Positions 17,082-63,320 of a stretch of 64,000 nt of DNA are shown piece by piece (within the stretch, counting starts at the first letter, position 1; the number at the start of each line of letters is the position of its first letter). The notes beneath the pieces are model-generated. The model was not told where the DNA came from. It worked only from the letters and a program-made list of their open reading frames with translations, and made no database searches. Location of the stretch: NCBI GenBank assembly GCA_964017235.1, contig OZ024928.1, positions 82,703,566 through 82,767,565 on the forward strand. The letters run 5' to 3'. The position numbers were made by a program, and so were the translations under genes. The stretch is from Sabellastarte sp. h YS-2021 (lineage: Eukaryota > Annelida > Polychaeta > Sabellida > Sabellidae).

Positions 17082-17160
17082 TAAGGAATGTCCAACAGGA
17101 AAATTATATACCTCCAGAATTAAATATAAATTATCAAACCACAAGAACAGATTTATAATA

Positions 17161-21498: not shown

Positions 21499-21504
21499 TA
21501 ACTG

Positions 21505-22080
21505 TCATTTATATTGCTTAAAGGCCTGTGACTTGGAGAAACGAGGGTTTGACCCCCGCCCACGACCACGACCCCTGGGCCTGTTCCTGCTAAATTGTCT
21601 CCAGGGTCGCTGCTGCTGCTGCTGCTGCTGTGGTGCTGTCTGATCAGAGGAAGAAGCATGTTTTCTGTCCTTACGATCATAAGGCTTATATCTGTGAGGA
21701 CCCTTCCAAGCAGTGTGCTGAGAAGCACCCGAACCGGGTCCCTGAGCAACACTGCTGGCCTCATATTTGGTTATGTCCTGTTCCGCCGTCATAATGGCAG
21801 CATCCAGAAATAGTCCGTAGCCGAACAACGGGGCATTCCTGAGCAAATTCATAGTGTCCTGTTTTACACCCGTCTTGACGAAATCCAGGTAAGAGTCTCT
21901 GCGGATCAAAACAAGATTAGCCATGTGGACAAACAAACTGTCTGCAATGTGTTGGAGGGAAGTGCCCATAGCAACAGACACCCGTTGGTGGAAGGCCATA
22001 AGATCCCGCAAGTCTGTCAAGGCATTAGAAACTTCCTTGGGAGTTTTACCCTTATTCCAACTTGGAACACAAAAGGGCAA
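21505..22080 (-). pseudogene. DIRS copy A gag, C-terminal part (frameshifted)
   Basis: Encodes a helical region (NALTDLRDLMAFHQRVSVAM and on), a (Gln)7 run from a CTG/CAG tract near 21,610-21,632, and an RGRGRGRG tail. The same layout (helical domain, then Arg/Gly-rich tail) ends the gag of copy B. It lies in a different frame from the upstream part (22052-23203), with the shift at about 22,052-22,080, so gag is broken. The Arg/Gly tail probably binds RNA. It ends just before the RT frame starts. Confidence 0.8.
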
Positions 22081-23203
22081 TGTTCTGAGTCATTCGGTCC
22101 TGCAATTCCGTGGAGCAACGGTTAAAGCCGGCCGCATGATTTATAATATAACTATCCTCCCTTGCGGTGCGCTCCCATCTACGAAGAGACTCCTGCGAGA
22201 TAGGACGGCATGGAGGCCCAGTGGCAGGGTAGGCGGCAGCTCTAGTAATCCTTGGGAATTGGCTGTTGACTTTTGCCTCCGTGTTTCGCCAACTGAAGAC
22301 AGAGCGACCAGGGCGCTGAGTACCTTCTGCTTTCAACATGTGCATCTTGTACCCTTTAGATTGCGTCTTAGGCACTTTAACAAACTGATCACGTTTGAGC
22401 CCGGCTGAGTCTTGTGATCTTGAGGGGTATCCTTCGGCCACCGTCAAGTTCAACCTTTCCAACTTTTGGCAAAGCCAATCGTCCGGCGGCATGGCTACAG
22501 AAATTCTAGTTGGCTTGTTTGGGTGCTTGCCTTTCCATGGGTTAATAGACTTGTCCGGTTCGGTATAGTCTGTTTCAAAAGTAGGGATATGGTGCCATCC
22601 CATGAATGCACGAACTGATCTGACGGTTTCCCGGTATGACATGTCTTCTGTCTGTTCTGGAGGGTCATTTGAATCAGATAACTGACCTTCTTCTTCTTCA
22701 CAGGAACCGGAGTCTGACCGGTCCATAGGGTAATCAGTAAAATGTTCATAATGTTCACTGTGGTCGTCCGGTGGATAGGCACATGCTCCAGCAGAGGGTT
22801 GCCCGAAACCGGATTGAGAGGAAGGAGGTGCACCGGTGTTGCCTGTACTAACATCAAGATCTGACGGGAAAAGGCTAGTATCACCCTTGTTTAAGACCCG
22901 TTGTGAGGCAGACTCCGGACCGGAGCTGGCCACAACCGGGGGTGAGTGAGGAGCTTTTGCTGAAGAAAATTGCCGGACTGGTGAAGGAGACCAGTCCCGT
23001 CTTCTCTCCGGCTTTTGGTCTGGTTTGTGCACCGACGTCTTAGCTAGTTTAGAATCAGAGTCAGTTTTATCCTGTTTACGTGACTTGTGAGACTTTTTCT
23101 TCTTGTCTTTTTCTTCAACTTTCTTCTGCTTAGCAGAATCCTCCACGGCTACCGGAACCTCAACCGGACCGGTGGGACGGGTAGCCGGAGGAACAAAAGG
23201 GTT
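22052..23203 (-). pseudogene. DIRS copy A gag, middle part
   Basis: Low-complexity Lys/Ser/Pro-rich N-terminal half, an acidic stretch (SGSCEEEEGQLSDSND), then a conserved-looking domain (SINPWKGKHPNKPTRISVAM). The frame is open up to the hAT insertion at 23,209 and is in register with the gag start on the far side (27726-28259). Removing the hAT and one 8-bp duplication would therefore leave a continuous frame. A frameshift at the 3' end separates it from the C-terminal part. Confidence 0.8.
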
Positions 23204-23208
23204 CTTAG
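23201..23208. repeat. 8-bp target-site duplication, left copy
   Basis: GTTCTTAG, repeated at 27726-27733 on the other side of the hAT element. Confidence 0.92.
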
Positions 23209-23349
23209 TAGTGTTCTCAATAAACCCTTTTCAGTAGGACCGGGTAGGTAATGATTGCAACGGGCGGGTACCCGGGTACTCGCGCCGATGGGCGATAATA
23301 GCTGAAGCTACAAAAATCTCCATATTTACAGACTTAAAACCTACAAAAA

Positions 23350-26300
23350 CTAGATTGGGCCAACTCGGCGCCAACATATCCCCAGACAGGTCATCACTCA
23401 CGCCACAGGTTTTGATCGGGAATTTTTAAAAACATAATTACCCATTATTATATGAACTTCAGCACATCAATCTACTCTGTTTATATCTTCCAAGGAAGAT
23501 GGTGTATCCCCAGACGCCGAATACATAACTCAAATTATATTTTCAATCTTCCTGCAATGATAACTCTAAACCTATTTTCAAAGTATTTAAATGATTGATG
23601 ATTGAATGTCCATTCTAAAATAATAATCCCAAAAGAGCATATCTGTTTCTATATTTGTTGACAAATAAAATATTATTTTTAACTCAACTCATCATACTTT
23701 TCAATCTTCCTTCAAAGTATTTAAATGATTGATGATTCAATGTCCATTCTAAAATTCATAATCCCAAAAGCGCATATCTGTTTCTATATTTGTTCACAAA
23801 TAAAATATTATTTAAAAAAAAATTATTTATATTATTATTTTATTATATTATTTTTAGAATTTGCAAATTGTTTTCAGTTATTCATTTCCTCTATACCTAT
23901 ATATGTGGTCCATATATATGCAACCTAAATATGTGACACAATCTCAGTTCTGACTCCCCTTTGTGTTATATGTAATGAAGCCCACCACCTCCCACCCCCA
24001 CCCCTCTCCCCTTCTCCACACCTCTCTCACTATTACACAAGATCTGCAACCCCATTGAGGTCTTTGTTTCTCATCTGATATCATTAAATACCTTTGTTTA
24101 TTTAGTGTCACTCAATATAGCTGGAGGTCCCAGAGGTGGGTGGGGGGAATCCGGGTGGGGGATGTGGGTTGGGACTTAGTTTAGTTTATTAGTTTATTAT
24201 AGTGACATGTATTATGTTGACAAGGATTATACAAAAACTATTGAAGTAATACCCAGCCCTATATGGGCTTATAAGTCACTTTAAATAGAGAGTTAATAAC
24301 AAACAGAGCAAACATATTTTGAGGTAAGATACAGTAAATAAAGACAGCAATTCAATACATAAAAATTAACAACATAATTTACTTTTTCTTTCTTGCCACA
24401 AATCAAAAATAAAATTAATAACCATATTGACATTCATATGAGTTAATACCCTTGATAATTGATCTATTAATAATTCAGATTTATCTATATTTAAAATTTT
24501 GAAATATTTCATACGAATCAGCTCTAAAGCTGGACAAACACAAACAAAATGTATCTCATCTTCTACAACTTTTTTACACAGTTTACATGTTCTCTCAAAG
24601 AGATGGAGTGCTACAGCATAAATGGTAAACAAACAATCTATATAAAAGGGGTACTCAAATACAAAAAGAATTGAGAATTTTAAGTATGTGATTATCAACT
24701 GAAATGAGTTCATAACTGTAGGAGCTGTGTCAAAATTAACTGAGGCAAGTTGAATAAAACTGGGCTAGTTGAGGGTTAAAAATCCCCTAGTTTTACTACA
24801 TACGGATATAATTTCATTAATATTGGGACTTAAGCTCACTTAAAGTGTCCATTTTGTCTACTTGAATATGTTTAACCGGCGTTTAACCAGTTTCATTTTA
24901 AAAAGTTAAAAACTCAGCAAGCAGAGGTATAACACACAAAAATAAGTTCTTAAAAGACTAAGATAGCCATAACATTATTAATATTCAAAATTTAAATAGA
25001 CAGGCATTTCCTTTTAAAAATTCAAAGATTTCAGCTCTATAACCCACATAGTTTGACAGTTACTGGGCTTTAAAGTGGCATAATGTCCATAAATTGGGTT
25101 TCTGTGGGCATTTTACAATTGTTAAAGAGACCTTAGCAATTAAACTACAGATCTGAAACTTTTTGGGGGACATACATAACAAACAAAAATTATATATAAT
25201 ACAGTTTAAGACTTGTCACACTAAGCATTTCCAAATAACAGGGCAAAATACGGAAAAAATGTCCAAAAAGGCACTTGGGCGAGTGTCTATGGCCCTCATA
25301 CACAGGTTAAATGTCTACTAAAAACCTTGATTTTCGCCATATGTAAAAAGGACATAATAATGCATTCCCAGATGGGATTTCAGCTCCATCAATCACATAG
25401 TTTAACAGTCACAGGGCTTAAAGGTGGCAAAAAGTCCAAATATTGGGTCTCTGTGGGCCTTTTAGAGATCTCGATGTGGCTTTCAAATTAAAGCTTCAGA
25501 CTTAAAATTTGTTACATACTAAGATTACACATAGAATATGTATCTAATAAAGTTTGAAACTTCTCAGACTTACCATTTCCAAGTTACAGAGCAAAATATG
25601 TGAAAAATGTCTTAAAAGGGTCACTCAGGTGGGTGTTTAAGGTCCTCATACACAGGTTAAATGTCTACTTGAAGCCTTGATTTTTGGCACATGTAAAAAG
25701 AACATAATAATGTATTCCCAGATGAGATTTCAGCTCTATCAGTCACATAGTTTAACAGTCACAGGCCTTAAAATTGGAGAAAAGTCCAAATACTGGGTCT
25801 TTATGGAGCCATCTAGAGACCTAAATGTGGCCTTCAAATTAAAGCTTCAGACTTAAAATTTGTCACATACTAAGATTACACATAGAATATGCATCTAATA
25901 CAGTTTGAAACTTCTTAGACTTACCATTTCCAAGTTACAGACCAAAATATGTGAAAAATGTCTAAAAATGGTCACTCGGGTGGGGATTTATGGTCCTCAT
26001 ACACAGGTTAAATGTCTTCTTAAAGCCTTAATTTTTGGCACATATATAAATAACATACTAATATCTTCCCAGATAGGATTTGAGCTCTATCACTCACATA
26101 GTTTGACAGTCACAGGGCTTAAAAGTAGCAAAAAGTCCAAATATTGGGTCTTTGGGAGCCTTTTAGAGACCTCAATTTGACCTTCAAAATTAAAGCTTCA
26201 GACTTAAAATCTGTTACATACTAAGATTACACACAGAATATATATCTAATACAGTTTGAAACTTCTCAGACTTACCATTTCCAAGTTACAGGGAAAAAGA

Positions 26301-27066
26301 TGTGAAAAATGTCTTATAAGGGTCACTCGGGTGGGTGTTTATGGTCCTGATACACAGGTTAACTGTCTATTAAAGGCCTAAATGTTGGGGCACATATAAG
26401 AAAACACATAGATATATTCCCAGATGATATTTAACTTAGATGAGAGACATAGTTTGAAAGCTACAGTGCTTGAAAGTGGCAAAAAGTGCATAAATTGGGT
26501 CTCTGTGGGCACTTTTGAGACCTTAAGTCGACCCCTTTGGGTAAACCTACAGCCCTAAAATTTTCTACAGACAAGGATTACATATCAAAGTTATACCTAG
26601 CACAGTTTGAGACTCATCAGAATTACCACTTCCAAATTATAGGGCAAAATATGTGAAAAGTATAGCAAAAAATCCCTAAGTGGGGGTATTTATAGGCCTC
26701 AAAGACAATTTTCTCCTCAACTTAAAGTCGTGATTTTCGGCACATGTACTAAGAACATATTAATGTGTTGTCAGGTAAAATTTCAGCCAGCTGAGCATCA
26801 TAGTTTGTGACCTACAGGGCTCTAAGTGGCCAAAAGTCCAATTTCTGACCTTAAGGTGGCCATAAGTTCTTTTTTACTGGGAGTTTAAGGTCACCTTAAA
26901 ATAGGGATCTTCCTTTGGGCACCCTTAACATGTGTACCAAGTTTGAAAAAAAAATATTAATTTGTTTTTGAGTTATCGCGTCCACAAGGAAATTTCTACG
27001 GCGGCGGCGGCGGCGGCGCGACGGACCTGAATCCAATATATCCCCGACTTTCGTCTGGGGATATAA
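23350..27066 (-). mobile_element. H1 Helentron-like element, copy 3 (inside the hAT)
   Basis: Complete by the same criteria as copy 2: CTAGATTGG start, subterminal ATATCCCCAGAC, ~350-bp core units, (CGG)6, and the final hairpin TATATCCCC/GGGGATATA. It follows copies 2 and 4 closely, including most core substitutions, which suggests recent spread. Relative to copies 2 and 4 it has extra sequence at about 24,172-24,610 resembling a LINE fragment. Confidence 0.88.
24172..24610 (-). mobile_element. LINE 3'-end fragment inside H1 copy 3
   Basis: The minus strand encodes RTCKLCKKVVEDEIHF..CVCPAL..IRMKYF. This is a C-x2-C-x8-H-x4-C box of the kind found at the C-terminus of many non-LTR retrotransposon ORF2 proteins. 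A 3' region ending in repeated TAAAC/TAATAAAC follows. Copies 2 and 4 lack this block. Copy 1 shares only its right edge ('aaagagat(a/g)gagtgctacagca'), so the older H1 form may have contained it and copies 2 and 4 lost it. Confidence 0.7.
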
Positions 27067-28561: not shown

Positions 28562-29587
28562 ATAGGTGGATTGCATACAGGAAAACACATTATCATGTGT
28601 AATTGTCCACCCATGATGATTGGAAAGGCTACAAGTCATTTAATGAAAAGATGAAAATGTAACCGTTGAGTCTGCTGATAAACTGGGGGTCAAAAATTTC
28701 GACGAAATCGCTCTATCTCACATCGTTTCCAAGATAAATGCATTTTTGCGTTTTGCACAGAAATTCAAGATGGCCACCAAAAATGATAGGAAAACGATTT
28801 TGGGAAAAGTCACCAGTTGACTCTGCTGATACCCTGGGGGTAAAACAATTTTGACGCAATTGCTATATCTCACACCGTTGCCGAGATAAATGCATTTTTA
28901 CGTTTTACACAGAAACTCAAGATGGCCAGGAAAACAATTTTTGGGAAATCTTGCCCGTCGACTCTGGGGATACCCTGGTGCTCAAAAATTTTGACGAAAT
29001 CACTCTATCTCGCACCGTTTCCAAGATATTTACACTTTTTTATTTTCCGCTAAAATCCAAAATGGCCGCCATAAGTTGTGAACATTTAAATTTTTCATTT
29101 TACCCAGGATAATTATTACCCTTTGGGTCGAAAATTTGCTCAAAATCGCTCTATCTGTAATGGTTTCTGAGATATAAGCAAAATACTCAAAAGTAGTATT
29201 GAAAATAGCCAATAAAGTACCTAAATGTCTATTACTCGTTTACTTACAGAGCTATCAGTCCCAAATGCAATACCAAGCAAGCTATAGACATAACAATCTT
29301 ATATTCCCAATTTTATTAAAATATCTTGAATCACTTTCCCTTAAATGCACGGAAACCAAAAGGTACAGAAAATAGGTATACTTGGGCATTACTCAGTAAG
29401 CAAAAGAGCTACAGCAGCTGAAAGCAATCCTTAGCAAGACACTGACCCAATAATCCTGCACACCAACTTTGGTGAAGACAGCTTCAATACTTTTCCTTAA
29501 AATGAGAGGAAACGATGTGTGACGCCAGACATCGGAAAAAGCAAAAATAATATGTCCACCCCCACCGGGGGGTGGACATAATAAATT
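28562..29587 (-). mobile_element. H5 Helentron-like element with AAGATGG repeats
   Basis: Ends in a perfect hairpin at 29551-29580 (13-bp arms TATGTCCACCCCC / GGGGGTGGACATA, loop ACCG). The inverted partner of GGGTGGACA (29570-29578) lies near the other side as TGTCCACCC (28604-28612). Between them are about four diverged ~130-bp units, each with 'caagatggcc', 'gctctatctc' and 'gagataaatgcatttt'. It abuts DIRS copy A exactly, so its left terminus may have been cut by the DIRS insertion. No coding capacity. Confidence 0.7.
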
Positions 29588-31311: not shown

Positions 31312-31611
31312 ACTATAAAAAATAACATTGGAGATGCCGGTACTGCACAACCCGGGGAAATAGTTTTCAACACTATGAGATATTGAAAAATAGCATCATA
31401 GATGCCCGTACCCCACAGTCTGCTTAAATAGTTTTCAACACAAAGAAATTTAGAAGCAGTGAAACGGTACAAAGATCTGGATACTTTCAGAGCAGTTTCA
31501 GTTATATAAAGGTCCAAATAATGCTTAGGTAGAAAAAATAAAAGAAAGAAAACTTATGTAAAGATAAAGTATTAAATCAAGACATTGCAATAGCAGGACG
31601 ACAGCATTAAA
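31312..31611. mobile_element. Two stacked H3 left ends
   Basis: The H3 start phrase ('aatagcatca(t/g)agatgcccgtaccccacag') or its variant appears near 31,318 and 31,388 and again at 31,612. Each is followed by 'atagttttcaacac' and 'gagatat'. The first is cut after ~70 bp and the second after ~220 bp by the next start, as if successive copies landed at or near the same end. Confidence 0.7.
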
Positions 31612-32799
31612 CTAAAAATAGCATCAGAGATGCCCGTACCCCACAGCCTAGGGAAATATTTTTCAACACCATGAGATATAGAAATAGTATAACAGTGCAA
31701 AGTTCAAGATACTTTCAGAGCAGTGTCAGTTATATTAAGGTCCAAATAATGCTTAAGTAGAGAAAATAGTATCTAAGGAAAAGAAATGTACGTAAAGATG
31801 AAGTATTAAAACAAAAGAATTCAATAATAAAATGACAGCACTTATCAGTAAACCAAAAATGGCCAAATTATGGTTTGAATGTTTTGAATATTACCCATGC
31901 ATACAGAAGTGGCAATACATTCAATGAATGCTTATGTGTGGTGTTGGAGAAAAGCCTGTGGCTCATTTGATGAAATTCCATCTGTTACAATGGGAACTTG
32001 CAAAAGGAAATTCTTAATGAATTCTAATATGACTTTAACAGTGCTTAATCTGCATTAACAGACAGACCCAAAGGTGCAACAAGATTTTAAAGGTCAATAC
32101 AGCAAGGTCAAAGGTCAATCAGTGTCACACCATGACGTGGCACACCTAAAACCCTCAACCAATGTCCCTACCAAGTATAAACTTCCTACACCTTACAGTC
32201 TCTGAGATATAGCCTGGACAAGATTTTATAGGTCAAGGTCACTACAGCAATGTCAAAGGTCAAATCAAGGTCACACTATGAAATAGCACACCTACACCCC
32301 CTAACCAATGTCCCTACCAAGTATCAACTTCCTACACCTTACGGTTTCCAAGATATAGCCCGGACCAGGTTTTATAGGTCAAGTTCAATACAGCAAGGTC
32401 AAAGGTCAAATCAAGGTCACACCATGATGTTGCACACCTACTACCCCCAACCAATGTCCTCACCAAGTATCACCTTCCTACACCTTACAGTTTCTGAAAT
32501 ATAGCCCGGACAAGATTTTATACGTCAAGGTCACTATGGCAAAGGTCAAAGGTCAAATCAAGGTCACACTATGAGGTTGCACATCTACACCCCCTAACCA
32601 ATGTCCCTACCAAGTATCAACTTCCTACACCTTACAGTTGCTGAGATATAGCCCGGACAAGGTTTTATAGGTCAAGGTCACTACGGCAAGGTCAAAGGTC
32701 AAATCAAGGTCAGACCATGATGTTGCACACATACAACTCCTAACCAATGTTCCTACCAAGTATCAACTTCCTACACCTCACAGTTTCCGAGATATAGCC

Positions 32800-34135: not shown

Positions 34136-34954
34136 AGCCAAGACAAGTTTTTCAAATTCATGGCCATTGTGGCTAGGTCAAAGGTCAAATCAAGACTACA
34201 CCATGATGATGCACACCTACAACCCCCAACCAATGGCCCTACCAAGTATCAACTTCCTAAACCTTGGAGTTTCTGATATATAGCCTGGACATCATTTTAT
34301 AAAGGTTAAGGTCACTACAGCAAGGTCAAAGTTCAAATCAAGGTCACACCATGATGTTGCACACCTACAACCCCTAACCAATGTCCCTACCAAGCATCAA
34401 CTTCCTACACCTCACGGTTTCCGAGATATAGCCCGGACAAGATTTTATAGGTCAAGGTCACTACAGCAAGGTCAAAGGTCAAATCAAGGTCACACCATGA
34501 CGTTACACACCTACACCCCCTAGCCAATGTCCCTATCAAGTATCAACTTCCTACACCTCACAGTTTCCGAGATATAGCCCGGACAAGATTTTATAGGTCA
34601 AGGTCACTATGGCAAGGTCAAATCAAGGTCATACTATGACGTTGCACACCTACAACCCCTAACCAATGTCCCTACCAAGTATCAACTTCCTACACCTCAC
34701 GGTTTCCGAGATATAGCCCCGATAAGATTTTCAAAGTTGAGGTCACTATGGCAAGGTCAAAGGTCAAATCAAAGTCAGACTATGACGTTGCACACCTACA
34801 CATCCTAACCAATGTCCCTACCAAGTATCAACTTCCTACACCTTACAGTTTCTGAGATACAGCCCGGACAAACTTTTCCCACCACCCGCCGGCCCATCCG
34901 GACACCATGGGTGAAAACAATACCCCGACAGCCCTTAAGGGCTGTGGGGTAAAA

Positions 34955-37804: not shown

Positions 37805-38049
37805 TAGCATGTGAAAGCTCTCCAAAATATAGGTGAATGAGTTATTTGAGAAATATTGGCTATCTGCAATACTTTTAGTGATAATAGGCAGTTACTCATT
37901 TTAAGTAGGTGAGTAATTAGCTACGGATCTGAAAATTCACTAATTGAAAGCTCTCCAAAATGTATGTGAATGAGTTATTTCAGAAATGCTGGCTATCTGC
38001 AATACTTGTAGAGATAATTCGTATTTACTCATTTTGAGTAGGTGAATAA
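37805..38049. repeat. 133-bp satellite, left part (about two units)
   Basis: Units with 'gtgaaagctctcc(c)aaaa', 'taggtgaatgagttatttga', 'ggctatctgcaatactttta', 'gagataattcgcatttactc' and 'agtaggtgaataattagcta'. This is the same family as 41,324-42,985 and 53,281-56,750. The array is split by H1 copy 4. Confidence 0.85.
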
Positions 38050-41000
38050 CTAGATTGGGCCAACTCGGCGCCAACATATCCCCAGACAGGTCATCACTCA
38101 CGCCACAGGTTTTGATCGGGAATTTTTTAAAACATAATTACCCATTATTATATGAACTTCTGCACATCAATCTACTCTGTTTATATCTTCCAAGGAAGAT
38201 GGTGTATCCCCAGACGCCGAATACATAACTCAAATTATATTTTCAATCTTCCTGCAATGATAACTCTAAACCTATTTTCAAAGTATTTAAATGATTGATG
38301 ATTGAATGTCCATTCTAAAATAATAATCCCAAAAGAGCATATCTGTTTCTATATTTGTTGACAAATAAAATATTATTTTAAACTCAACTCATCATACTTT
38401 TCAATCTTCCTTCAAAGTATTTAAATGATTGATGATTCAATGTCCATTCTAAAATTCATAATCCCAAAAGCACATATCTGTTTCTATATTTGTTCACAAA
38501 TAAAATATTATTTAAAAAAAAATTATTAATATTATTATTTTATTATATTATTTTTAGAATTTGCAAATTGTTTTCAGTTATTTATTTCCTCTATACCTAT
38601 ATATGTGGTCCATATATATGCAACCTAAATATGTGACACAATCTCAGTTCTGACTCCCCTTTGTGTTATATGTAATGAAGTCCACCACCTCCCACCCCCA
38701 CCCCTCTCCCCTTCTCCACACCTCTCTCACTATTACACAAGATCTGCAACCCCATTGAGTTCTTTGTTTCTCATCTGATATCATTAAATACCTTTGTTTA
38801 TTTAGTGTCACTCAATATAGCTGGAGGTCCCAGAGGTGGGTGGGGGGGAATCCGGGTGGGGGATGCATAAATGGTAAACAAACAATCTATATAAAAGGGG
38901 TACTCAAATACAAAAAGAATTGAGAATTTTAAGTATGTGATTATCAACTGAAATGAGTTCATAACTGTAGGAGCTGTGTCAAAATTAACTGAGGCAAGTT
39001 GAATAAAACTGGGCTAGTTGAGGGTTAAAAATCCCCTAGTTTTACTACATAAGGATATAATTTCATTAATATTGGGACTTAAAGCTCACTTAAAGTGTCC
39101 ATTTTGTCTACTTGAATATGTTTAACCAGTTTCATTTTAAAAAGTGAAAAACTCAGCAAGCAGAGGTATAACACACAAAAATAAGTTCTTAAAAGACTAA
39201 GATAGCCATAACATTATTAATATTCAAAATTTAAATAGACAGGCATTTCCTTTTAAAAATTCAAAGATTTCAGCTCTATAACCCACATAGTTTGACAGTT
39301 ACTGGGCTTTAAAGTGGCATAATGTCCATAAATTGGGTTTCTGTGGGCATTTTACAATTGTTAAAGAGACCTTAGCAATTAAACAACAGATCTGAAACTT
39401 TTTGGGGGACATACATAACAAACAAAAATTATATATAATACAGTTTAAGACTTGTCACACTAAGCATTTCCAAATAACAGGGCAAAATACGGAAAAAATG
39501 TCCAAAAAGGCACTTGGGCGAGTGTCTATGGCCCTCATACACAGGTTAAATGTCTACTAAAAACCTTGATTTTCGGCATATGTAAAAAGGACATAATAAT
39601 GCATTCCCAGATGGGATTTCAGCTCCATCAATCACATAGTTTAACAGTCACAGGGCTTAAAGGTGGTAAAAAGTCCAAATATTGGGTCTCTGTGGGCCTT
39701 TTAGAGATCTCGATGTGGCTTTCAAATTAAAGCTTCAGACTTAAAATTTGTTACATACTAAGATTACACATAGAATATGTATCTAATAAAGTTTGAAACT
39801 TCTCAGACTTACCATTTCCAAGTTACAGAGCAAAATATGTGAAAAATGTCTTAAAAGGCTCACTCAGGTGGGTGTTTAAGGTCCTCATACACAGGTTAAA
39901 TGTCTACTTGAAGCCTTGATTTTTCGCACATGTAAAAAGAACATAATAATGTATTCCCAGATGAGATTTCAGCTCTATCAGTCACATAGTTTAACAGTCA
40001 CAGGCCTTAAAATTGGCAAAAAGTCCAAATACTGGGTCTTTATGGGGCCTTCTAGAGACCTAAATGTGGCCTTCAAATTAAAGCCTCAGACTTAAAATTT
40101 GTCACATACTAAGATTACACATAGAATATGCATCTAATACAGTTTGAAACTTCTTAGACTTACCATTTTCAAGTTACAGGGCAAAATATGTGAAAAATGT
40201 CTAAAAATGGTCACTCGGGTGGGGATTTATGGTCCTCATACACAGGTTAAATGTCTTCTTAAAGCCTTAATTTTTGGCACATATATAAATAACATACTAA
40301 TATCTTCCCAGATAGGATTTGAGCTCTATCAGTCACATAGTTTGACAGTCACAGGGCTTAAAAGTAGCAAAAAGTCCAAATATTGGGTCTTTGGGAGCCT
40401 TTTAGAGACCTCAATTTGACCTTCAAAATTAAAGCTTCAGACTTAAAATCTGTTACATACTAAGATTACACACAGAATATATATCTAATACAGTTTGAAA
40501 CTTCTCAGACTTACCATTTCCAAGTTACAGGGAAAAAGATGTGAAAAATGTCTTATAAGGGTCACGCGGGTGGGTGTTTATGGTCCTGATACACAGGTTA
40601 ACTGTCTATTAAAGGCCTAAATGTTGGGGCACATATAAGAAAACACATAGATATATTCCCAGATGATATTTAACTTAGATGAGAGACATAGTTTGAAAGC
40701 TACAGTGCTTGAAAGTGGCAAAAAGTGCATAAATTGGGTCTCTGTGGGCACTTTTGAGACCTTAAGTCGACCCCTTTGGGTAAACCTACAGCCCTAAAAT
40801 TTTCTACAGACAAGGATTACATATCAAAGTTATACCTAGCGCAGTTTGAGACTCATCAGAATTACCACTTCCAAATTATAGGGCAAAATATGTGAAAAGT
40901 ATAGCAAAAAATCCCCAAGTGGGGGTATTTATGGGCCTCAAACACAATTTTCTCCTCAACTTAAAGTCGTGATTTTCGGCACATGTACTAAGAACATATT

Positions 41001-41236
41001 AATGTGTTGTCAGGTAAAATTTCAGCCAGCTGAGCATCATAGTTTGTGACCTACAGGGCTCTAAGTGGCCAAAAGTCCAATTTCTGACCTTAAGGTGGCC
41101 ATAAGTTCTTTTTTACTGGGAGTTTAAGGTCACCTTAAAATAGGGATCTTCCTTTGGGCACCCTTAACATGTGTACCAAGTTTGAAAAAAAAATATTAAT
41201 TTGTTTTTGAGTTATCGCGTCCACAAGGAAATTTCT

Positions 41237-41276
<40 letters not shown>

Positions 41277-41323
41277 GACGGACCTGAATCCAATATATCC
41301 CCGACTTTCGTCTGGGGATATAA
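38050..41323 (-). mobile_element. H1 Helentron-like element, copy 4 with a proven empty site
   Basis: Full-length: CTAGATTGG start, subterminal ATATCCCCAGAC (38076-38087), ~350-bp core units, a (CGG)12 run near 41,238-41,274 and the inverted GTCTGGGGATAT (41310-41321). The flanks are 133-bp satellite. Joining GGTGAATAA on the left to TTAACTACGGG on the right recreates the normal unit (GTGAATAATTAGCTACGGG, for example near 42,112). The insertion therefore added no target duplication and sits between A and T, as Helitron-type rolling-circle transposons do. Confidence 0.92.
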
Positions 41324-42985
41324 TTAACTACGGGTGTGAAACTTCACCAAGTGAAAGCTCTCCCAAAAGTAGGTGAATGAGTTATTTGAGAAAAATTGGC
41401 TATCTGCAATACTTTTACAGATAATTCACATTTACTCATTTTGATTAGGTGAGTAATTAGCTACGGGTCTGGAACTTCACCATGTGAAAGCTCTCCCAAA
41501 AGTAGATGAACGAGTAATTTGATAAAAATTGGATACCCGCAATACTTTTAGAGATAATTAGCATTTACTCATTTTGAGGTGAATAATTAGCTACGGCTCT
41601 GAAAATTCACCATGTAAAGCTCTCCCAAAAGTAGGTGAATGAGTTATTTGATAAAAATTGGCTATCTGCAATACTTTTAGAGATAATTCACATTTACTCA
41701 TTTTCAGTAGGTGAGTAATTAGCTACGGGTCTGGAACTTCACCATGTGAAAGCCCTCCCAAAAGTAGATGAATGAGTTATTCGATAAAAATTGGATATCC
41801 GCAATACTTTTAGAGATAATTCCCATTTACTCATTTTGAGTAGGTGAATAATTAGCTACGGGTCTGAAACCTCACCAAGTAAAAGCTTTCCCAAAAGTAG
41901 GTGAATGAATTATTTGAGAAAAATTGGATATCTGCAATACTTTTACAGATAATTCACATTTACTCATTTTGAGTAGGTGAGTAATTAGCTACGGGTCTGG
42001 AACTTCACCATGTGAAAGCTCTCCCAAAAGTAGATGAACGAGTAATTTGATAAAAATTGGATATCCACAATACTTTTAGAGATAATTAGCATTTACTCAT
42101 TTTGAGTAGGTGAATAATTAGCTACGGGTCTGAAACTTCACCAAGTGAAAGCTCTTCCAAAAGTAGGTGAATGAGTTATTTAAGAAAAACTGGATATCCC
42201 CAATACTTTTAGGGATAATTCACATTTACTCATTTTGAGTAGGTGAGTAATTAGCTACGGGTCTGGAACTTCACCATGTGAAAGCTCTCCCAAAAGTAGA
42301 TGAATGAGTTATTTGATAAAAATTGGATATCCGCAATACTTTTACAGATAATTCACATTTACTCATTTTGAGTAGGTGAATAATTAGCTACGGGTCTGAA
42401 ACCTCACCAAGTAAAAGCTCTCCCAAAAGTAGGTGAATGAGTTATTTGAGAAAAATTGGATATCTGCAATACTTTTACAGATAATTCACATTTACTCATT
42501 TTGAGTAGGCGAGTAATTAGCTACGGGTCTGGAACACCATGTGAAAGCTCTCCCAAAAGTAGATGAACGAGTAATTTGATAAAAATTGGATATCCACAAT
42601 ACTTTCAGAAATAATTAGCATTTACTCATTTTGAGTAGGTGAATAATTAGCTATGGGTCTGAAACTTCAAGTGAAAGCTCTTCCAAAAGTAGGTGAATGA
42701 GTTATTTAAGAAAAATTGGATATCCCCAATAATTTTAGGGATAATTCACATTTACTCATTTTGAGTAGGTGAGTAATTAGCTACGGGTCTGGAACTTCAC
42801 CATGTGAAAGCTCTCCCAAAAGTAGATGAATGAGTTATTTGATAAAAATTGGATATCCGCAATACTTTTAGAGATAATTATCATTTACTCATTTTGAGTA
42901 GGTGAATAATTAGCTACGGGTCTGAAACTTCACCATGTGAAAGCTCTCCCAAAAGTAGATGAAGCAGTTATTTGAGAAAAATTAT
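41324..42985. repeat. 133-bp satellite, right part (about 12 units)
   Basis: Continues the array interrupted at 38,049. Alternating variants ('caccaagtgaaagctc... gtaggtgaatga' and 'caccatgtgaaagctc... gtagatgaa(t/c)ga') occur in turn, giving a ~265-bp two-unit higher-order repeat. It grades into the 321-bp family at about 42,985. Confidence 0.88.
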
Positions 42986-48921: not shown

Positions 48922-48946
48922 CACACACACACACACACACCCCCAC
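48918..48946. repeat. (AC)n microsatellite
   Basis: About 11 AC units followed by a C-rich stretch, between the SINE head and the truncated H3 copy. Confidence 0.9.
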
Positions 48947-49616
48947 CCCGAACAGCCTAGGGAAATAATTTTAATACCATGAGATATAGAATTAATGTAT
49001 CAGTACAAAGTTCAGGATACTTTCATAGCACTGTCAGTTATATAAAGGTCCAAACAATGTTTAAATAGAGAAAATAATGTCGAAGAGAAAGATAATGCAT
49101 GTGAAGATGAAGTATTAAACAAGACAATTCAATAACAAGATGACAGCATTAATCAGTAAACTAAACATTACTACACTCTTTTATCTACATTTGGCATGGC
49201 CGAATTATGGTTTGGATGTTTGAATATTACCATGCATATAGAAGTGGTAATACATTCAATGAATGCTTATGTGTGGAGTTGGGAGCAAAACCTGTGGCTC
49301 ACTTGATGAAATTCCATCTGTTACAATGGGAAGTTGAAAAAGTTAAATTCTTAATGAACTCTAATAAGACTTTAACAGTGCTTAATCTGCATCAAAAGAC
49401 AGATCCAAAGGTGCAACAAGATTTTATAGGTCAAGGTCACTACAACAAGGTCAAAGGTCAAATCAAGGTCACACCATGATGCTGCAGACCTGCAACCCCT
49501 AACCAATGTCCCTACCAAGTATCAACTTCCTACACCTTACGGTTTCCGTGATATAGCCCGGACAAGATTTTATAGGTCAAGGTCACTACGGCAAGGTCAA
49601 AGGTCAAACTAGGAAT

Positions 49617-51098
49617 TTCAAAAAGTGGGGGTGATCCCCCACCACTGCACAAAATGTTGGGGAGGGGCTAAAAATTCTGGGGGACGACTTTATGATAAGT
49701 TTAAACTAATAAAAAATACATTTTCAGTTTATTTATACATTTTAACAGTGGACTTCTATTAATTAGTGGTCAATTTTTATTGTCTTGCCCAATAAAAATA
49801 AACTTCAAGGCTAGTGATAGAATTTTAAAAAAATACTGAAAATGGTTATTTACATCAAAGTGGCTCCTGTCACGGCATTATGGTTTTAAGTTTTCATCTG
49901 AAGTCATGGCATCACAAATTCAGTCATTACACCATCAATTCATACAAATATGTTGGAAAACCCCCACAGAATACCATGACCTCATGAATATTAATGAGTA
50001 GTCCATAAATTCTTCAAGTAAAATATTGCTAAAAAATCCAATGGAATCGTCAAATATTTTTTTACGCATACATGAGCTCTGTAGTCCATCTAGTATTTGA
50101 TCTTAAATCAGAAAATATTAAGAATTAGTGGTGGTGGACCAATTCACACCCGGGTACCTATTCACGCCCACCCCTAAATTTATCCAAAACAATCACAGTT
50201 AAACAATAAGTTACAAATGTAAATGATCCATTTGATGAATATCTATGATGTGGTTAACATCTTCTCTCTGAAAAATTAGTGGTGGTGGACCAATTCACGC
50301 CCATGTACCTATTCACGCCCACCCTCAATTTTCTCAAAGATTTGTACTTTTTCATGGACAAGATGTTTACCACATCATAGATAATTATCGAATTGATGAT
50401 ATACATAAGTAATTTATTGTGTAATTGTGCTGGTTTTGGATAAATTTAGGGGTGGGCGTGAATAGGTACATGGGCGTGAACTGGTCCACCACCACTATAA
50501 ATCTTCATGAAAATTGAGGGTGGGCCTGAATTGGTACCCGGGCCTGAATTGGTCCACCACTACTAAAACCACCATAAAAATCTGTGACCTCATTAATATT
50601 AATGAGTTGTCCATGAATTTTGATCCAGTAAAATATTTTTCTAGGGAATTCCGACAGATACGTAGGGTCAGCACCGGCTTCACTGCCATGGCCTGTTGTA
50701 GTAACAATCCAGTCTACTGTAAGTTTCGTTTTTCTTGCAGCCATTTTTTATATAATCATCCACTTTCAGCTTAATTTTATATTTTTGGGTATAATATGTC
50801 CAAATACTGTCTGTACCTCATAATATATTTGAGTTTGTAAACGATCACGAAACCACAATCGTCTACAGGCATTATTCGAAGAACGTTTCGACGGAAAAAT
50901 CAAAACCTCGACAAACTCTCGATCCGTGCAGTGTTTCGATTTTCTAGATCTCTCGTCTTTTCGCTTCATATATTTCCCGCATCACCTTGTGTACTACGCG
51001 TTCTCATATAATTTGGTTACCGCAGACTCCAAGAAAATCCGCGTTTGTAGGCGAATTAATGCGCGATCCCGCGGAAAACGCATCCTAGAAGCAACTCT
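49617..51098. mobile_element. Unclassified insertion in H3, possibly composite
   Basis: Starts CTAGGAATTTC, followed within 15 bp by a hairpin (GTGGGGG/CCCCCAC), which resembles the end design of the other Helentron-like families. Inside are interlocked inverted repeats (50127-50567). The right part, near 50,840-51,090, is unusually CpG-rich ('cgcgatcccgcgg'). A minus frame at 50505-50744 starting MAARKTKLTVDW has an ATG and a plausible downstream sequence but matches no family I recognise. Confidence 0.45.
50127..50567. repeat. Interlocked inverted repeats (two pairs)
   Basis: Four copies of a 45-60 bp block with 'agtggtggtggaccaattca' and 'cctattcacgcccaccc': forward at about 50,127 and 50,276, inverse at about 50,438-50,499 and 50,508-50,567. 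The inner flanks tell the partners: 'ctaaatttatccaaaac' pairs the 1st with the 3rd, and 'ctcaattttc' pairs the 2nd with the 4th. The 1st-3rd hairpin extends further inward ('tatgatgtggttaacatctt' against 'aagatgtttaccacatcata'). Confidence 0.8.
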
Positions 51099-51487
51099 GA
51101 ACCAATGTCCCTACCAAGTATCAACTTCCTACACCTTACGGTTTCCGAGATATAACCTGGACAAGACTTTATAGGTCAAGGTCACTACGGCAAGGTCAAA
51201 TCAAGGTGAGAAAATGATGTAGCACACCTACACCCCCTAACCAATGTCCCTACTAAGTATCAACTTACTCTACCTTACGGTTTCCGAGATATAGCCAGGA
51301 CAAGATTTTATAGGTCAAGGTCACTACGGCAAGGTCAAAGGTCAAATCAAGGTCAGACCATGACGTTGCACACCTACACATCCTAACTAATGTCCCTACC
51401 AAGTATCGCTTCCTAAGATACAGCCCGGACAAACTTTTTCCCACCGGGAAAACACTACCCTGACAGCCCTTAAGGACTGTGGGGTAA

Positions 51488-52053
51488 AAATTCTTTTCAA
51501 AATTCATTAAAAAATAATCAAGAAAGATCCAGGTCTGACACTCACACAAGGGAATCTACTTGTGGCCTAGTACATACTACATATGTTCAAGATATGAGAG
51601 AAATCCCTGAAATAGTCACTGAGAAAATTGTGATAAAGTGTTAAAATTTTCTTACTTATAATAGCTCTAGCAAACAGATGAACAAACAGAGCTGCATGCC
51701 TTGAACAATTTTTTTTTCATGCTAGATAGATAAGCTATCTTTTTAAAAAAAATAGGCCAAGGCCTGCTGCTTACTGGCGACCCGCATGTTGTGGTTGTGC
51801 CACCCAAATACTTTTTTCATACTTTTTTCATATTTCGTCACATGTATTTTATATTCTGTGATGATATAACCTGGTCACCCAAATAGGTCGGTGATTATGC
51901 AAAATAATATATATTGTGAACACAACTAAAACTTCAATGTAATACAACTTCTTCAATAAAGCAATTATTATTTGTCAGTTTTGCATGCATACATTTCATT
52001 ATGTACCAGAAAGTTAGGAAAAAACTTTTCTTAGAATGTCAGGAGTATAAATT
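51488..52053. other. Unclassified sequence between H3 and DIRS copy B
   Basis: AT-rich sequence with no supported gene or repeat. Confidence 0.45.
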
Positions 52054-53275: not shown

Positions 53276-56200
53276 GTGAAAGGTCTTCCAAAAGTAGGTG
53301 AATGAGTTATTTGAGAAAAATTGGCTATCTGCAATACTATTAAGAGATAATTCACATTTACTCATTTTGAGTAGGTGAATAATTATCTATGGGTCTGAAA
53401 CTTCACCAAGTGAAAGCTCTCCCAAAAGTAGGTGAAGTTATTTGAGAAAAATTGGCTATCTGCAATACTTTTAGAGATAATTCGCATTTACTCATTTTGA
53501 GTAGGTGAGTAATTAGCTATGGGTCTGAAACTTCACCATGTGAAAGCTCTCCCACAAGTAGATGAATGAGTATTTGAGAAAAATTGGGTATCCGCAATAC
53601 TTTTACAGATAATTAGCATTTACTCATTTTGAGTAGGTGAATAAATAGCTATGGGTCTGAAACTTCACAGAGTGAAAGCTCTCCCAAAAGTAGGTGAATG
53701 AGTTATTTGAGAAAAATTGGCTATCTACAATACTTTTAGAGATAATTCACATTTACTCATTTTGAGTAGGTGAATAATTAGCTATGGGTCTGAAACTTCA
53801 CCAAGTGAAAGCTCTGCCAAAAGTAGGTGAATGAGTTATTTGAGAAAAATTGGCTATCTGCAATACTTTTAGAGATAATTCGCATTTACTCATTTTGAGT
53901 AGGTGAGTAATTTGCTATGGGTCTGAAACTTCACCAAGTGAAAGCTCTCCCAAAAGTAGGTGAATGAGTTATTTGAGAAAAATTGGCTATCTGCAATACT
54001 TTTAGAGATAATTCGCATTTACTCATTTTGAGTAAGTGAGTAATTAGCTATGGGTCTGAAACTTCACCAAGTGAAAGCTCTCCCAAAAGTAGGTGAATGA
54101 GTTATTTGAGAAAAATTGGCTATCTGCAATACTTTTAGAGATAATTCGCATTTACTCATTTTGAGTAGGTGAGTAATTAGCTATGGGTCTGAAACTTCAC
54201 CAAGTGAAAGCTCTCCCAAAAGTAGGTGAATGAGTTATTTGAGAAAAATTGGCTATCTGCAATACTTTTAGAGATAATTCACATTTACTCATTTTCAGTA
54301 GGTGAGTAATTAGCTACGGGTCTGAAACTTCACCAAGTGAAAGCTCTGCCAAAAGTAGGTGAATGAGTTATTTGAGAAAAATTGGCTATCTGCAATACTT
54401 TTAGAGATAATTCGCATTTACTCATTTTGAGTAGGTGAGTAATTAGCTATGGGTCTGAAACTTCACAGAGTGAAAGCTCTCCCAAAAGTAGGTGAATGAG
54501 TTATTTGAGAAAAATTGGCTATCTGCAATACTTTTAGAGATAATTCGCATTTACTCATTTTGAGTAGGTGAGTAATTAGCTATGGGTCTGAAACTTCACC
54601 ATGTGAAAGCTCTCCCAAAAGTAGGTGAATGAGTTATTTGAGAAAAATTAGCTATCTGCAATACTTTTAGAGATAATTCGCATTTACTCATTTTGAGTAG
54701 GTGAGTAATTAGCTATGGGTCTGAAACTTCACCAAGTGAAAGCTCTCCCAAAAGTAGGTGAACGATTAATTTGAGAAAAATTGGCTATCTGCAATACTTT
54801 TAGAGATAATTCGCATTTACTCATTTTGAGTAGGTGAGTAATTAGCTATGGGTCTGAAACTTCACCAAGTGAAAGCTCTCCCAAAAGTAGGTGAATGAGT
54901 TATTTGAGAAAAATTGGCTATCTGCAATACTTTTACAGATAATTCGCATTTACTCATTTTGAGTAGGTGAGTAATAAGCTATGGGTCTGAAACTTCACCA
55001 AGTGAAAGCTCTCCCAAAAGTAGGTGAATGATTAATTTGAGAAAAACTGGCTATCTGCAATACTTTTAGAGATAATTCGCATTTACTCATTTTGAGTAGG
55101 TGAGTAATTAGCTATGGGTCTGAAACTTCACCAAGTGAAGGCTCTCCCAAAAGTAGGTGAATGAGTTATTTGAGAAAAATTGGCTATCTGCAATACTTTT
55201 AGAGATAATTCGCATTTACTCATTTTGAGTAGGTGAGTAATTAGCTATGGGTCTGAAACTTCACCAAGTGAAAGCTCTCCCAAAAGTAGGTGAATGAGTT
55301 ATTTGAGAAAAATTGGCTATCTGCAATACTTTTAGAGATAATTCACATTTACTCATTTTCAGTAGGTGAGTAATTAGCTATGGGTCTGAAACTTCACCAA
55401 GTGAAAGCTCTGCCAAAAGTAGGTGAATGAGTTATTTGAGAAAAATTGGCTATCTGCAATACTTTTAGAGATAATTCGCATTTACTCATTTTGAGTAGGT
55501 GAGTAATTAGCTATGGGTCTGAAACTTCACAGAGTGAAAGCTCTCCCAAAAGTAGGTGAATGAGTTATTTGAGAAAAATTGGCTATCTGCAATACTTTTA
55601 GAGATAATTCGCATTTACTCATTTTGAGTAGGTGAGTAATTAGCTATGGGTCTGAAACTTCACCATGTGAAAGCTCTCCCAAAAGTAGGTGAATGAGTTA
55701 TTTGAGAAAAATTGGCTATCTGCAATACTTTTAGAGATAATTCGCATTTACTCATTTTGAGTAAGTGAGTAATTAGCTATGGGTCTGAAACTTCACCAAG
55801 TGAAAGCTCTCCCAAAAGTAGGTGAATGAGTTATTTGAGAAAAATTGGCTATCTGCAATACTTTTAGAGATAATTCACATTTACTCATTTTCAGTAGGTG
55901 AGTAATTAGCTATGGGTCTGAAACTTCACCAAGTGAAAGCTCTGCCAAAAGTAGGTGAATGAGTTATTTGAGAAAAATTGGCTATCTGCAATACTTTTAG
56001 AGATAATTCGCATTTACTCATTTTGAGTAGGTGAGTAATTAGCTATGGGTCTGAAACTTCACAGAGTGAAAGCTCTCCCAAAAGTAGGTGAATGAGTTAT
56101 TTGAGAAAAATTGGCTATCTGCAATACTTTTAGAGATAATTCGCATTTACTCATTTTGAGTAAGTGAGTAATTAGCTATGGGTCTGAAACTTCACCAAGT

Positions 56201-56752
56201 GAAAGCTCTCCCAAAAGTAGGTGAATGAGTTATTTGAGAAAAATTGGCTATCTGCAATACTTTTAGAGATAATTCGCATTTACTCATTTTGAGTAGGTGA
56301 GTAATTAGCTATGGGTCTGAAACTTCACCATGTGAAAGCTCTCCCAAAAGTAGGTGAATGAGTTATTTGAGAAAAATTGGCTATCTGCAATACTTTTAGA
56401 GATAATTCGCATTTACTCATTTTGAGTAAGTGAGTAATTAGCTATGGGTCTGAAACTTCACCAAGTGAAAGCTCTCCCAAAAGTAGGTGAATGAGTTATT
56501 TGAGAAAAATTGGCTATCTGCAATACTTTTAGAGATAATTCGCATTTACTCATTTTGAGTAGGTGAGTAATTAGCTATGGGTCTGAAATTTCACCATGTG
56601 AAAGCTCTCCCAAAAGTAGGTGAATGAGTTATTTGAGAAAAATTGGCTATCTGCAATACTTTTAGAGATAATTCGCATTTACTCATTTTGAGTAGGTGAG
56701 TAATTGGCTATGGGTCTGAAACTTCACCATGTGAAAGCTCTTCCAAAAGTAG
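53276..56752. repeat. 133-bp satellite array (about 26 units)
   Basis: A strict 133-bp period (for example 'gggtctgaaacttcacc' at 54052, 54185 and 54318) with very high identity between units. Minor variants (caccaag/caccatg/cacagag, ctcccaaaa/ctgccaaaa, gagtagg/cagtagg/gagtaag) recur in blocks of several units, which shows recent segmental amplification. Same family as 37.8-43 kb but more homogeneous. Confidence 0.95.
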
Positions 56753-57400
56753 GTGAGAAATTTTTTGTTTGAAAATTGGCATGGCTACTCTGCAGAGATA
56801 CCCTGCGGGTCAAAAATTTCGTCGAAATCCCTCTATCTAGCAGGGTTTTCGAGATATAAGCATTTTTATGTTTTGCAATTTTTGCGAAAAATTCGAAAAT
56901 TCAAAATGGCCGCCATTTTTGGCGAGACAAAATTTTTTTCAAAATTGGGATAACTACTCTGCAGAGATACCCTGCGGGTCAAAAATTTCGTCGAAATTGC
57001 TCTATCTAGCACGGTTTTCGAGATATAAGCATTTTTGTGTTTTGCAATTTTTGCGAAAATTTCGAAAATTCAAAATGGCCGCCATTTTTGGCGAGACAAA
57101 AATTTTTTGAAAATTGGGAAAAGTACTCCGCAGAGATATCCTGCGGGTCAAAAATTTTGTCGAAATTGCTCTATCTAGCACGGTTTTTGAGATATAAGCA
57201 TTTTTGTGTTTTGCAATTTTTGCGAAAATTTCGAAAATTCAAAATGGCCGCCATTTTGGGCGAGACAAAAATTTTTTGAAAATTGGGAAAACTACTCCGC
57301 AGAGATACCCTGCGGGTCAAAAATTTCGTCGAAATCGCTCTATCTAGCACGGTTTTCGAGATATAAGCATTTTTGTGTTTTCCTTATTTGGAAAATTCGT
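56753..57400. repeat. 169-bp repeat family, right block (about 3.8 units)
   Basis: The methionine-starting open frames at 56868, 57037 and 57206 mark an exact 169-bp period. Each unit contains the near-palindromic CAAAATGGCCGCCATTTT, 'ctctatctagcacggttttc' and 'tgcgggtcaaaaattt'. The repeated ~80-codon frames are a by-product of the repeat. Confidence 0.92.
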
Positions 57401-57844: not shown

Positions 57845-58489
57845 TTACCCGTAACATCTTGAAGGTAAAGGAATACCTAGATCCTGGGAAAGACTCCTGA
57901 AGACTTGGTTGTAGCGGATGTGCCCCCCCCCCCTTTTTTCTTTCCGAGGACAACTGGTCTGAGGGGAAGGATCTAGGACTTGTTGTGCAGCCACTACGGG
58001 TCCCAGGTACAAATTGTTGTCGGTGTCCGACCAAGTAAGGTCTTTTAGGTAAAAATTTGTAAATGTGTTGTGAGCTTTCCAGTGACAGGCTTGCATGATT
58101 TGGTCCACCGATACCCCACCGTAAAAGGCCTTAGAGGCCGCGAAGGCCCGGATGTCATGCGCTTTGACTTGGACCAAGTCCAAGGCTTGTTGATCTGCTT
58201 GTTTGTAACAAAGTAAAATGGTTTGTTTCAACCATGAAGAGAGTGTAGCGGGTCTGATGTCTGAGGTATGTCCTTTCTTAAAGGAGATGAAAAGGAGAGA
58301 ACGAGACCCTCTCAGGTCTTTAGTTCGGTCCAAATAAAACCTCAGGGCCCGTACGGGACACAGGGTCCTGTCTTCTTTAAATTGTCTATCCACAATGGTA
58401 GTCAGAGCAGGGATAGTCACCGGAGACACACTTTGAGAACCTTCTCTTGCTAGTTGGTTTTTGGCTATGAAATCAGAAGAAGGGAACAA
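57845..58489 (-). pseudogene. DIRS copy B tyrosine recombinase, C-terminal part
   Basis: Carries the rest of the catalytic domain: TLCPVRALRFYLDRTKDL, LLFISFKKGHTSDI, HDIRAFAASKAFYGGVS (the H-x-x-R box) and QACHWKAHNTFTNFYLKDL (the His/Trp and nucleophilic Tyr region). A Ser/Pro/Lys-rich tail follows. It is in a different frame from the N-terminal half: a one-base shift lies at about 58,490-58,505, just after the first catalytic Arg. Apart from this the domain looks intact, so the lesion is recent, a sequencing or assembly error, or a site of programmed frameshifting. Confidence 0.88.
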
Positions 58490-60854: not shown

Positions 60855-61180
60855 TTGTTTGTGAGCCAGTCTCTCCTGAAAGAACGGAGGCGACCTCCTA
60901 CTGGTGGACTGAGTGAGGCTTTGGAGGAGTCATTGGGGAGGGGGGTTTCCACGCCCCCTTCCTCTATTGTGGGGTCGAAAACGACCCCTGAAGCCTCTGA
61001 AGTTGGATTTTCCTCTTCCCGAAGGAAAGGACTGGTTACTGCTTTGAGAGGTATTGCCCCCATAGGGGCGTTTCCTGTAGGAGCCTCTTTTCTTGTGGGG
61101 ACCACGAAAGGGCTTATTCTGGTAGGGTGGAAAACCCTGAGAATCTTTTGAGGTGCCTTTTTTGAGAAGGAAGTCCTCAC
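58874..61180 (-). CDS. DIRS copy B reverse transcriptase - RNase H
   Basis: A 768-codon frame. The RT spans about residues 170-345 (RLFLVPKPHQRWRPVIDL, LDL-type SIDLSDAYLHIPI, LPFGLATAP, catalytic YLDD at 293-296). The RNase H follows with Asp459 (LFTDAS), Glu491, Asp516 (VATDNS) and Asp567 (VMADLLSR), so all four metal ligands are present. A conserved C-terminal linker (HVDLFATHLNHKLPLYVSPI, IAPGWPGMPWFWD) of the kind seen in DIRS/Ngaro elements completes it. It overlaps the gag end by about 250 bp in another frame. The listed first codon is not an ATG, so translation probably uses frameshifting or reinitiation. Looks enzymatically intact. Confidence 0.92.
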   Translation of the reverse strand: MRTSFSKKAPQKILRVFHPTRISPFVVPTRKEAPTGNAPMGAIPLKAVTSPFLREEENPTSEASGVVFDPTIEEGGVETPLPNDSSKASLSPPVGGRLRSFRRDWLTNKCSQNVLNIITNGYVLPFRSKPNLIRFPLILSEYKAQQKDQALATCIQSLLSKNAIERVDNVKSLGFYSRLFLVPKPHQRWRPVIDLSRLNTFLHVEKFKMETPESIRTSLIPGEWVSSIDLSDAYLHIPIHPSSRKYLRFCYKAQVFQFTSLPFGLATAPQVFTMIVKEVKLMALSRGLRIHQYLDDWLIRSQSQEEAQVNTQAVVELTQSLGWIINQEKSELKPTQVFSFVGYEYHLDSALVKPTLERWLKLQDLILRLKSKRVLTARCLMSLIGLLASTEKMVPEGRLHMRPFQFHLKEHWRYPQSLDNLLPWTEAIAAHLDWWQNPSKVMKGADLHPKDHSIQLFTDASNEGWGAHLDQNFTKGLWSNREKRLHINVLELKAVSLALRDFKDQCQNQTVLVATDNSTVVAYINKQGGTHSAEMCALLWKIMTWCHHYLITLKARHIPGCLNVMADLLSRSNQVQSTEWSLHPQVFKQICQKWFTPHVDLFATHLNHKLPLYVSPIPDPKAWDIDALNINWTNLTAYAYPPTALLHKVIQKIRQCQCLIIVIAPGWPGMPWFWDLVQLSTEIPLQLPVSTTLLKQSHKLVFHNNPQHLNLHAWCLGADNSKNKASLWRWQRELLPLSGHQQGPSTSQSGPYLKNGAEKIRWISPLHL

Positions 61181-63095: not shown

Positions 63096-63320
63096 TTTGT
63101 ATGCAATAAAAGACGTAGAAAGAATTAGCCTGAACCGAGGAAAACTCAAAACACGCGACTGCAATAAAAATACTTATCCTGTGGAAATGAAACTTTTACA
63201 GAATAATCTATGATATATATTACAAGAAATATGCAAATATTAGCCTCCAACAATAAGTAAAGTCTGAGAAATAAATGAAAATGTCTGTATATTTACAAAC
63301 TGCTACCAGTCAATCGTGGC
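63096..63320 (-). promoter_or_regulatory. DIRS copy B 5' untranslated / leader region
   Basis: About 225 bp between the 5' terminal repeat and the gag ATG. With the terminal repeat it should contain the promoter by analogy with studied DIRS elements. I see no certain TATA or initiator. Confidence 0.45.

Follow-up and report, generated by a model that had tools for sequence, protein, structure and literature searches.

Among the HINEs, which are non-autonomous rolling-circle transposons of the Helentron type, those of mites carry subTIRs 2-4 nt from the 5' end according to the text of PMC4067079, which also reports that DINE-1 has an IR close by, lists microsatellites or tandem repeats together with a 3' palindrome, and describes HINE boundaries as each carrying at least two T. 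The modules of the oyster are alike, with subTIRs of 11-12 bp and IRs 1-12 bp away (text of PMC7492417). In the text of PMC5148889, asymmetric terminal inverted repeats and hairpins are attributed to both Helitron2 elements and Helentrons. A CTAG end and insertion at A/T (the slash marking the insertion point) typify canonical Helitrons and proto-Helentron-Pi, not Helentrons.

This study analyzed a stretch of 64,000 nucleotides from Sabellastarte sp. h YS-2021 (contig OZ024928.1; hereafter, the window), which contains several copies of a repeat family designated H1. The best reading of H1 is that it is a HINE, because its layout is that published for HINEs and DINE-1; its sequence makes this reading highly probable. 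Membership in the class was inferred from structure. Read on the minus strand, H1 consists of TT, ATATCCCCAGAC, GAAA, a complementary arm, a CCG microsatellite, repeats of approximately 350 bp, a flank module, GTCTGGGGATAT, a palindrome, and TCTAG, followed by the target TT.

Comparison of the window with itself revealed five H1 starts, at 12483, 13432, 23350, 38050, and 63729, each opening with CTAGATTGGGCCAACTCGG, and three intact far ends reading GGGGATATAA, at 17081, 27066, and 41323. All five copies have a single orientation, on the minus strand. Copy 4, complete and located within a 133-bp satellite, occupies 38050-41323, exactly as the first-pass annotation had placed it. That annotation had also counted at least five copies in 64 kb, which agrees with the five starts: copies 2 (13432-17081), 3 (23350-27066), and 4 are bounded at both ends, the far end of copy 1 is lost, and copy 5 (63729-64000) comprises the CTAG end and continues beyond the window. 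Copy 1 is divided by the nested copy 2 into a CTAG-side part (12483-13431) and a second part (17082-19164) that matches the other copies to approximately 19164.

In one alignment, copies 2, 3, and 4 were mutually 98.7-99.1% identical (3254-3262 gap-free sites), and copy 1 was 92.5-92.9% identical to these three (2814-2824 sites); the identity of copy 1 by BLAST, with gaps counted, was 85-87%. The sequence at 12483-13431 and that from 17082 onward flank copy 2 and can be aligned with the other copies; the exception is a stretch of 127 bp, present in copy 1 and absent from the others, in which copy 2 lies. On the evidence of the sequence, a young H1 copy sits in an older, more divergent one. Copy 2 itself contains an insert of approximately 370 bp (approximately 16439-16811) with terminal TTAGAA-like repeated units and near-identical 9-bp flanking stretches, which by eye looks like a LINE-type 3' tail. 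Copy 3 contains approximately 451 bp (24165-24615) that are missing from copies 2 and 4; the last few right-hand bases of this segment are also present in copy 1, and part of the difference may be a deletion in the other copies.

The 5' end of H1 reads TT in all three complete copies (41322-41323 in copy 4). The 5' hairpin of copy 4 (41294-41322, minus strand) comprises the subTIR ATATCCCCAGAC at 41310-41321, a GAAA loop, and the complementary arm; the hairpin of TATATCCCC and GGGGATATA described in the first-pass annotation is present, its full stem being 12 bp with one bulged A. Folded as a 39-nt DNA, it reached -9.7 kcal/mol (z -4.50), and none of 200 shuffles was as stable; within a 60-nt stretch, the z score was -2.37, with 5 of 200 shuffles as stable. 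The 12-bp inverted repeat formed by ATATCCCCAGAC, previously described as near-terminal at one end and about 25 bp in at the other, is offset from these ends by 2 bp and 26 bp, respectively, in each of the three complete copies. Among 20,000 random intervals with the same three lengths and with ends outside H1, none reached an inverted match of 12 bp, and nine reached 11. The CCG microsatellite (CGG on the plus strand) occupies 41238-41275 on the minus strand in copy 4; the pure CGG run is 12 units long in copy 4, 7 in copy 2, and 6 in copy 3, and no CGG run of three or more pure units was found in copy 1. The longest perfect stem in the hairpin scan of the window (13 bp, with a 4-nt loop), at 29551-29580, lies outside H1.

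The core of copy 4 is a tandem repeat with a period of 351 (39265-40898, minus strand). Tandem Repeats Finder detected this repeat of approximately 350 bp as 4.7 units in copies 3 and 4, 3.8 units in copy 2, and 3.6 units in copy 1. On the CTAG side of copy 4, the 3' subTIR GTCTGGGGATAT (38076-38087, minus strand) is followed by a palindrome (38055-38074, minus strand) with a 7-bp stem, one bulge, and a 5-nt loop, and then terminally by TCTAG. The 20-nt palindrome has the same sequence in all five copies, and its outer edge lies 5 bp from the end. Its stability is ordinary, with a z score of -1.52 for 35 nt (17 of 200 shuffles as good) and of -0.18 in a longer stretch of 61 nt (80 of 200 as stable). 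The terminal 43 bp on this side exhibited no difference among the five copies. A stronger constraint on these bases than on the remaining element was tested for and is not supported, because 209 of the 2772 43-site stretches compared between copies 1 and 4 are likewise identical.

The insertion sites were examined through the flanks. Copy 4 is preceded by GAGTAGGTGAATAA and followed by TTAACTACGGGTGTG, and an uninterrupted satellite unit reads, for example, GTAGGTGAATAATTAGCTACGGGTCT. Excising copy 4 in silico restored the 133-bp satellite at AA/TT with a flush junction; the rejoined flanks differ from the satellite at two bases, both in the right part and neither at the junction. An independent comparison is provided by the left flank of copy 1 (12326-12482), a repeat with uninterrupted paralogues at 31607-31766, 31386-31538, and 48945-49074; in all three of these paralogues, the insertion point is followed by T and preceded by AAAA, indicating AA/T, in a comparison that is one-sided because the other side of copy 1 is lost. 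On the plus strand, H1 is preceded by AA (5/5 copies) and followed by T (3/3), which on the minus strand corresponds to TT directly after CTAG (5/5) and ATT on the other side (3/3). The junctions of the two-sided copies read AAA/TAA, AAA/TAA, and TAA/TTA; the flanks vary among copies, and the element edges are exact. As read from these junctions, H1 inserts flush at AA/T, or A/TT on the minus strand.

These results bear on three statements of the first-pass annotation. That copy 4 interrupts the satellite and that its removal almost restores the unit was borne out, as was the CTAG end followed by T, which at all five starts is followed by TT. The third statement, insertion at A/T with no target duplication, stood as to the site; its second part can equally be read as a constant 2-bp TT duplication. 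The letters are identical for an element that begins with TT and inserts without duplication, and the two cannot be told apart, because the element end and the targets both read TT on the minus strand. The texts of the HINE and FoHeli papers (PMC4067079 and PMC5148889) express a similar doubt over the terminal T. Constant longer target duplications, which had been named beforehand as refuting, were not seen in the window. The satellite forms two arrays (37812-42983 and 53276-56756), the second comprising 26.2 units with 96% matches; the first is followed by neighboring 321-bp and 155-bp arrays.

The assignment of H1 to a Helentron-associated family, as first proposed, is supported. Every structural part of a HINE named in the cited text was looked for and found, namely the 5' subTIR, the adjacent complementary IR, the microsatellite, the central tandem repeats, the 3' subTIR, the 3' palindrome, and the TT-flanked insertion. 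We scanned both strands of the window for a subTIR with an adjacent IR and a distant inverted subTIR, without using H1 letters and with thresholds chosen after H1 had been seen. The scan identified five pairs, four of which are H1 (one joins the end of copy 2 with the start of copy 1); ten shuffled windows yielded two pairs in total. The fifth pair, ATTTGACCTTG, belongs to another repeat region, at 33565 and 34613. The possibility that the 133-bp satellite is the core of another HINE was rejected, the scan having found no pair around the two arrays except copy 4, with the array edges viewed by eye. A dispersed, partly tandem, AAGGTCA-rich repeat of 146 bp was observed at 32090-32799, 34175-34871, 49416-49608, and 51092-51490.

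Copy 4 has no open reading frame of at least 120 aa, which fits the lack of coding capacity expected of a HINE. Pfam detected no Rep-helicase in any of the window's 19 stop-to-stop reading frames of 120 aa or more; two of the 19 encode reverse transcriptase and RNase H, and the other 17 matched nothing at E 0.01. The reverse transcriptase and RNase H matches mark two divergent retroelement regions on the minus strand (19039-23230 and 57845-63173), which appear DIRS-like by eye; the long frame of the former continues into H1 copy 1 at its broken end. By exact scanning, which would miss diverged relatives, the 23- and 20-base terminal strings had no match in IMG/VR, nor had a 29-base terminal string in the GTDB genome contigs. 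Scans with Rfam (gathering threshold) and for tRNA genes also revealed no match.

H1 was then compared with known families by description. According to the text of PMC7492417, Cg_HINE of Crassostrea gigas shares with H1 a 5' subTIR of 11-12 bp, a complementary IR a few bases away, a microsatellite, satellite-like central repeats, a 3' subTIR, a 3' palindrome, and a TT target; no duplication is evident in Cg_HINE, and the H1 letters are compatible with there being none. The central repeat of H1 is approximately 350 bp, whereas those of Cg_HINE are mostly 140-180 bp; the microsatellite is a CCG triplet in H1 and mostly a 4-nt unit in Cg_HINE; and H1 has a CTAG end, whereas that text gives none for Cg_HINE, a comparison of descriptions and not of sequences. 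HINE-Mo (from the mite Metaseiulus) and DINE-1 (from Drosophila) resemble H1 in the order of the subTIRs, the IR (in DINE-1), the central repeats, and the 3' palindrome, as well as in having at least two T per boundary and clean empty sites (text of PMC4067079). Unlike them, H1 ends in CTAG and targets A/TT; its 3' subTIR lies 26 bp from the end and its palindrome 5 bp, compared with 38-60 bp and 8-35 bp, respectively, in the mite HINEs described there. The ends of H1 are those of proto-Helentron-Pi from Phytophthora infestans, for which the text of PMC4067079 gives a 5' TT, a 3' CTAG, and A/T insertion, adding that there is no duplication; that element, however, is autonomous, approximately 14 kb long, and otherwise Helitron-like, whereas H1 has subTIRs and lacks a Rep-helicase. 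FoHeli1/2 of Fusarium oxysporum, of the Helitron2 type, share with H1 a hairpin at each end, a 12-bp asymmetric inverted repeat, and the doubt between terminal T and target T, but they end in TCAG and ATTTT, are autonomous, and have no tandem-repeat core described in the text of PMC5148889. H1 looks like a new HINE family with slightly unusual ends. In the literature text searched, no description of this combination of ends or of the H1 sequences was found, and a text search with six strings from the window returned four papers that were unrelated as judged by title and the start of the abstract.

One question arises within the HINE reading, namely which enzyme moved H1. A Rep-helicase of the Helitron2 or proto-Helentron type, rather than an endonuclease-bearing Helentron, is a possible but doubtful source, and the rolling-circle mechanism would be unchanged. 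All three terminal features of proto-Helentron-Pi occur in H1, as do the hairpins at both ends that, together with the 12-bp asymmetric repeat, characterize FoHeli1/2 in the text of PMC5148889; by contrast, the subTIR, IR, microsatellite, and central repeats of H1 are of the HINE type and set it apart from the otherwise Helitron-like proto-Helentron-Pi (text of PMC4067079). A nonautonomous canonical Helitron (Helitron1), in which the inverted repeats would be incidental, appears improbable. The CTAG end fits CTRR in all five copies, insertion occurs at A/T, and a palindrome lies near the CTAG end, all of which such an element would share; however, the 5' end is TT and not TC in three of three copies, the palindrome lies 5 bp and not approximately 11 bp from the end, and an asymmetric repeat of 12 bp, beyond anything in the 20,000 random intervals, is not expected.

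The outermost ends also distinguish H1 from a cut-and-paste (DDE) element with no duplication or a 2-bp one, such as those of the Spy group. They read CTAGATTGG and TTATATCCC and are unlike, so H1 has no terminal inverted repeat, and the shared 12-mer is offset by 26 bp at one end and 2 bp at the other. Spy elements insert in AAATTT without duplication, according to the text of PMC4482050, but AAA/TTT surroundings were found in none of the three two-sided H1 copies. A 2-bp AA duplication (TT on the minus strand) is compatible with the H1 letters, and we nevertheless regard this reading as very improbable; DDE-type termini, named beforehand as refuting, were not seen in the window. An origin of the copies by segmental duplication, or as a dispersed satellite, instead of by insertion is scarcely credible. 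The five copies are co-oriented, their core consists of tandem repeats, and repeats abound in the window, but the flanks differ, the edges are exact, copy 4 interrupts the satellite, and copy 2 interrupts copy 1; this explanation is already contradicted for copies 1, 2, and 4.

With H1 taken as a HINE, its parts and their order, and the wider class as characterized in the text of PMC5148889, suggest that it is most likely mobilized in trans by a Rep-helicase. The ends and targets of H1 can be read directly, and we infer the enzyme, the strand, and the intermediate. A partner element elsewhere would supply the Rep-helicase, which would recognize the subTIR/hairpin end in trans and nick there; one strand would be peeled or copied from the hairpin end through the core; the process would end at the palindrome and CTAG; and that strand would be joined into an ATT target. 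Because CTAG, A/T, and the 5' TT occur as in proto-Helentron-Pi (text of PMC4067079), the partner may lack the endonuclease.

The CTAG-side module contains an internal second unit. In all five copies, a second subTIR-like sequence, GTCTGGGGATAC, matches the 3' subTIR at 11 of 12 positions in the same orientation and is followed by a palindrome. In copy 4, this unit spans 38185-38215 (minus strand), with the match at 38204-38215 and the palindrome at 38185-38200; in the other copies, it is located at 12634-12670, 13587-13598, 23504-23515, and 63885-63896. It lies further inside than the 3' subTIR, by 128 bp in copies 3 and 4, 129 bp in copy 2, 130 bp in copy 5, and 150 bp in copy 1. Matches to the 12-mer with at most one mismatch number 13 in the window, all in H1, and averaged 0.38 in shuffles. 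The second palindrome has one mismatched pair in copy 2, and its hairpin is modest: z scores ranged from -1.46 to -2.10 when short stretches of copies 4, 1, and 5 were folded, and a longer stretch gave +0.46. CTAG is absent after the internal unit, and no H1 copy in the window ends at it. The text of PMC4067079 groups elements into one family when their subTIRs agree over 11 bp or more; by this rule, the match of 11 of 12 makes the second unit resemble the 3' end of another subfamily. The unit could be an older terminator that was bypassed, or it could provide an additional site for protein binding. It is conceivable, although we consider it rather unlikely, that H1 is composite, a HINE in which two 3' terminators are stacked, the older internal subTIR-palindrome having been bypassed and superseded by a new subTIR-palindrome-CTAG end of the proto-Helentron type.

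H1 is a sharply bounded family with a satellite-like core, for which insertion and relative age are documented within the window itself, and its terminal sequences can be used for finding an autonomous partner. If the composite reading is true, H1 records a switch of the 3' end, with Helentron-type recognition joined to Helitron-type termination at CTAG and A/T. Replacement of the 3' end is a step by which rolling-circle elements may acquire neighboring DNA, and if the second unit is a bypassed terminator, H1 would be a natural record of such a replacement.
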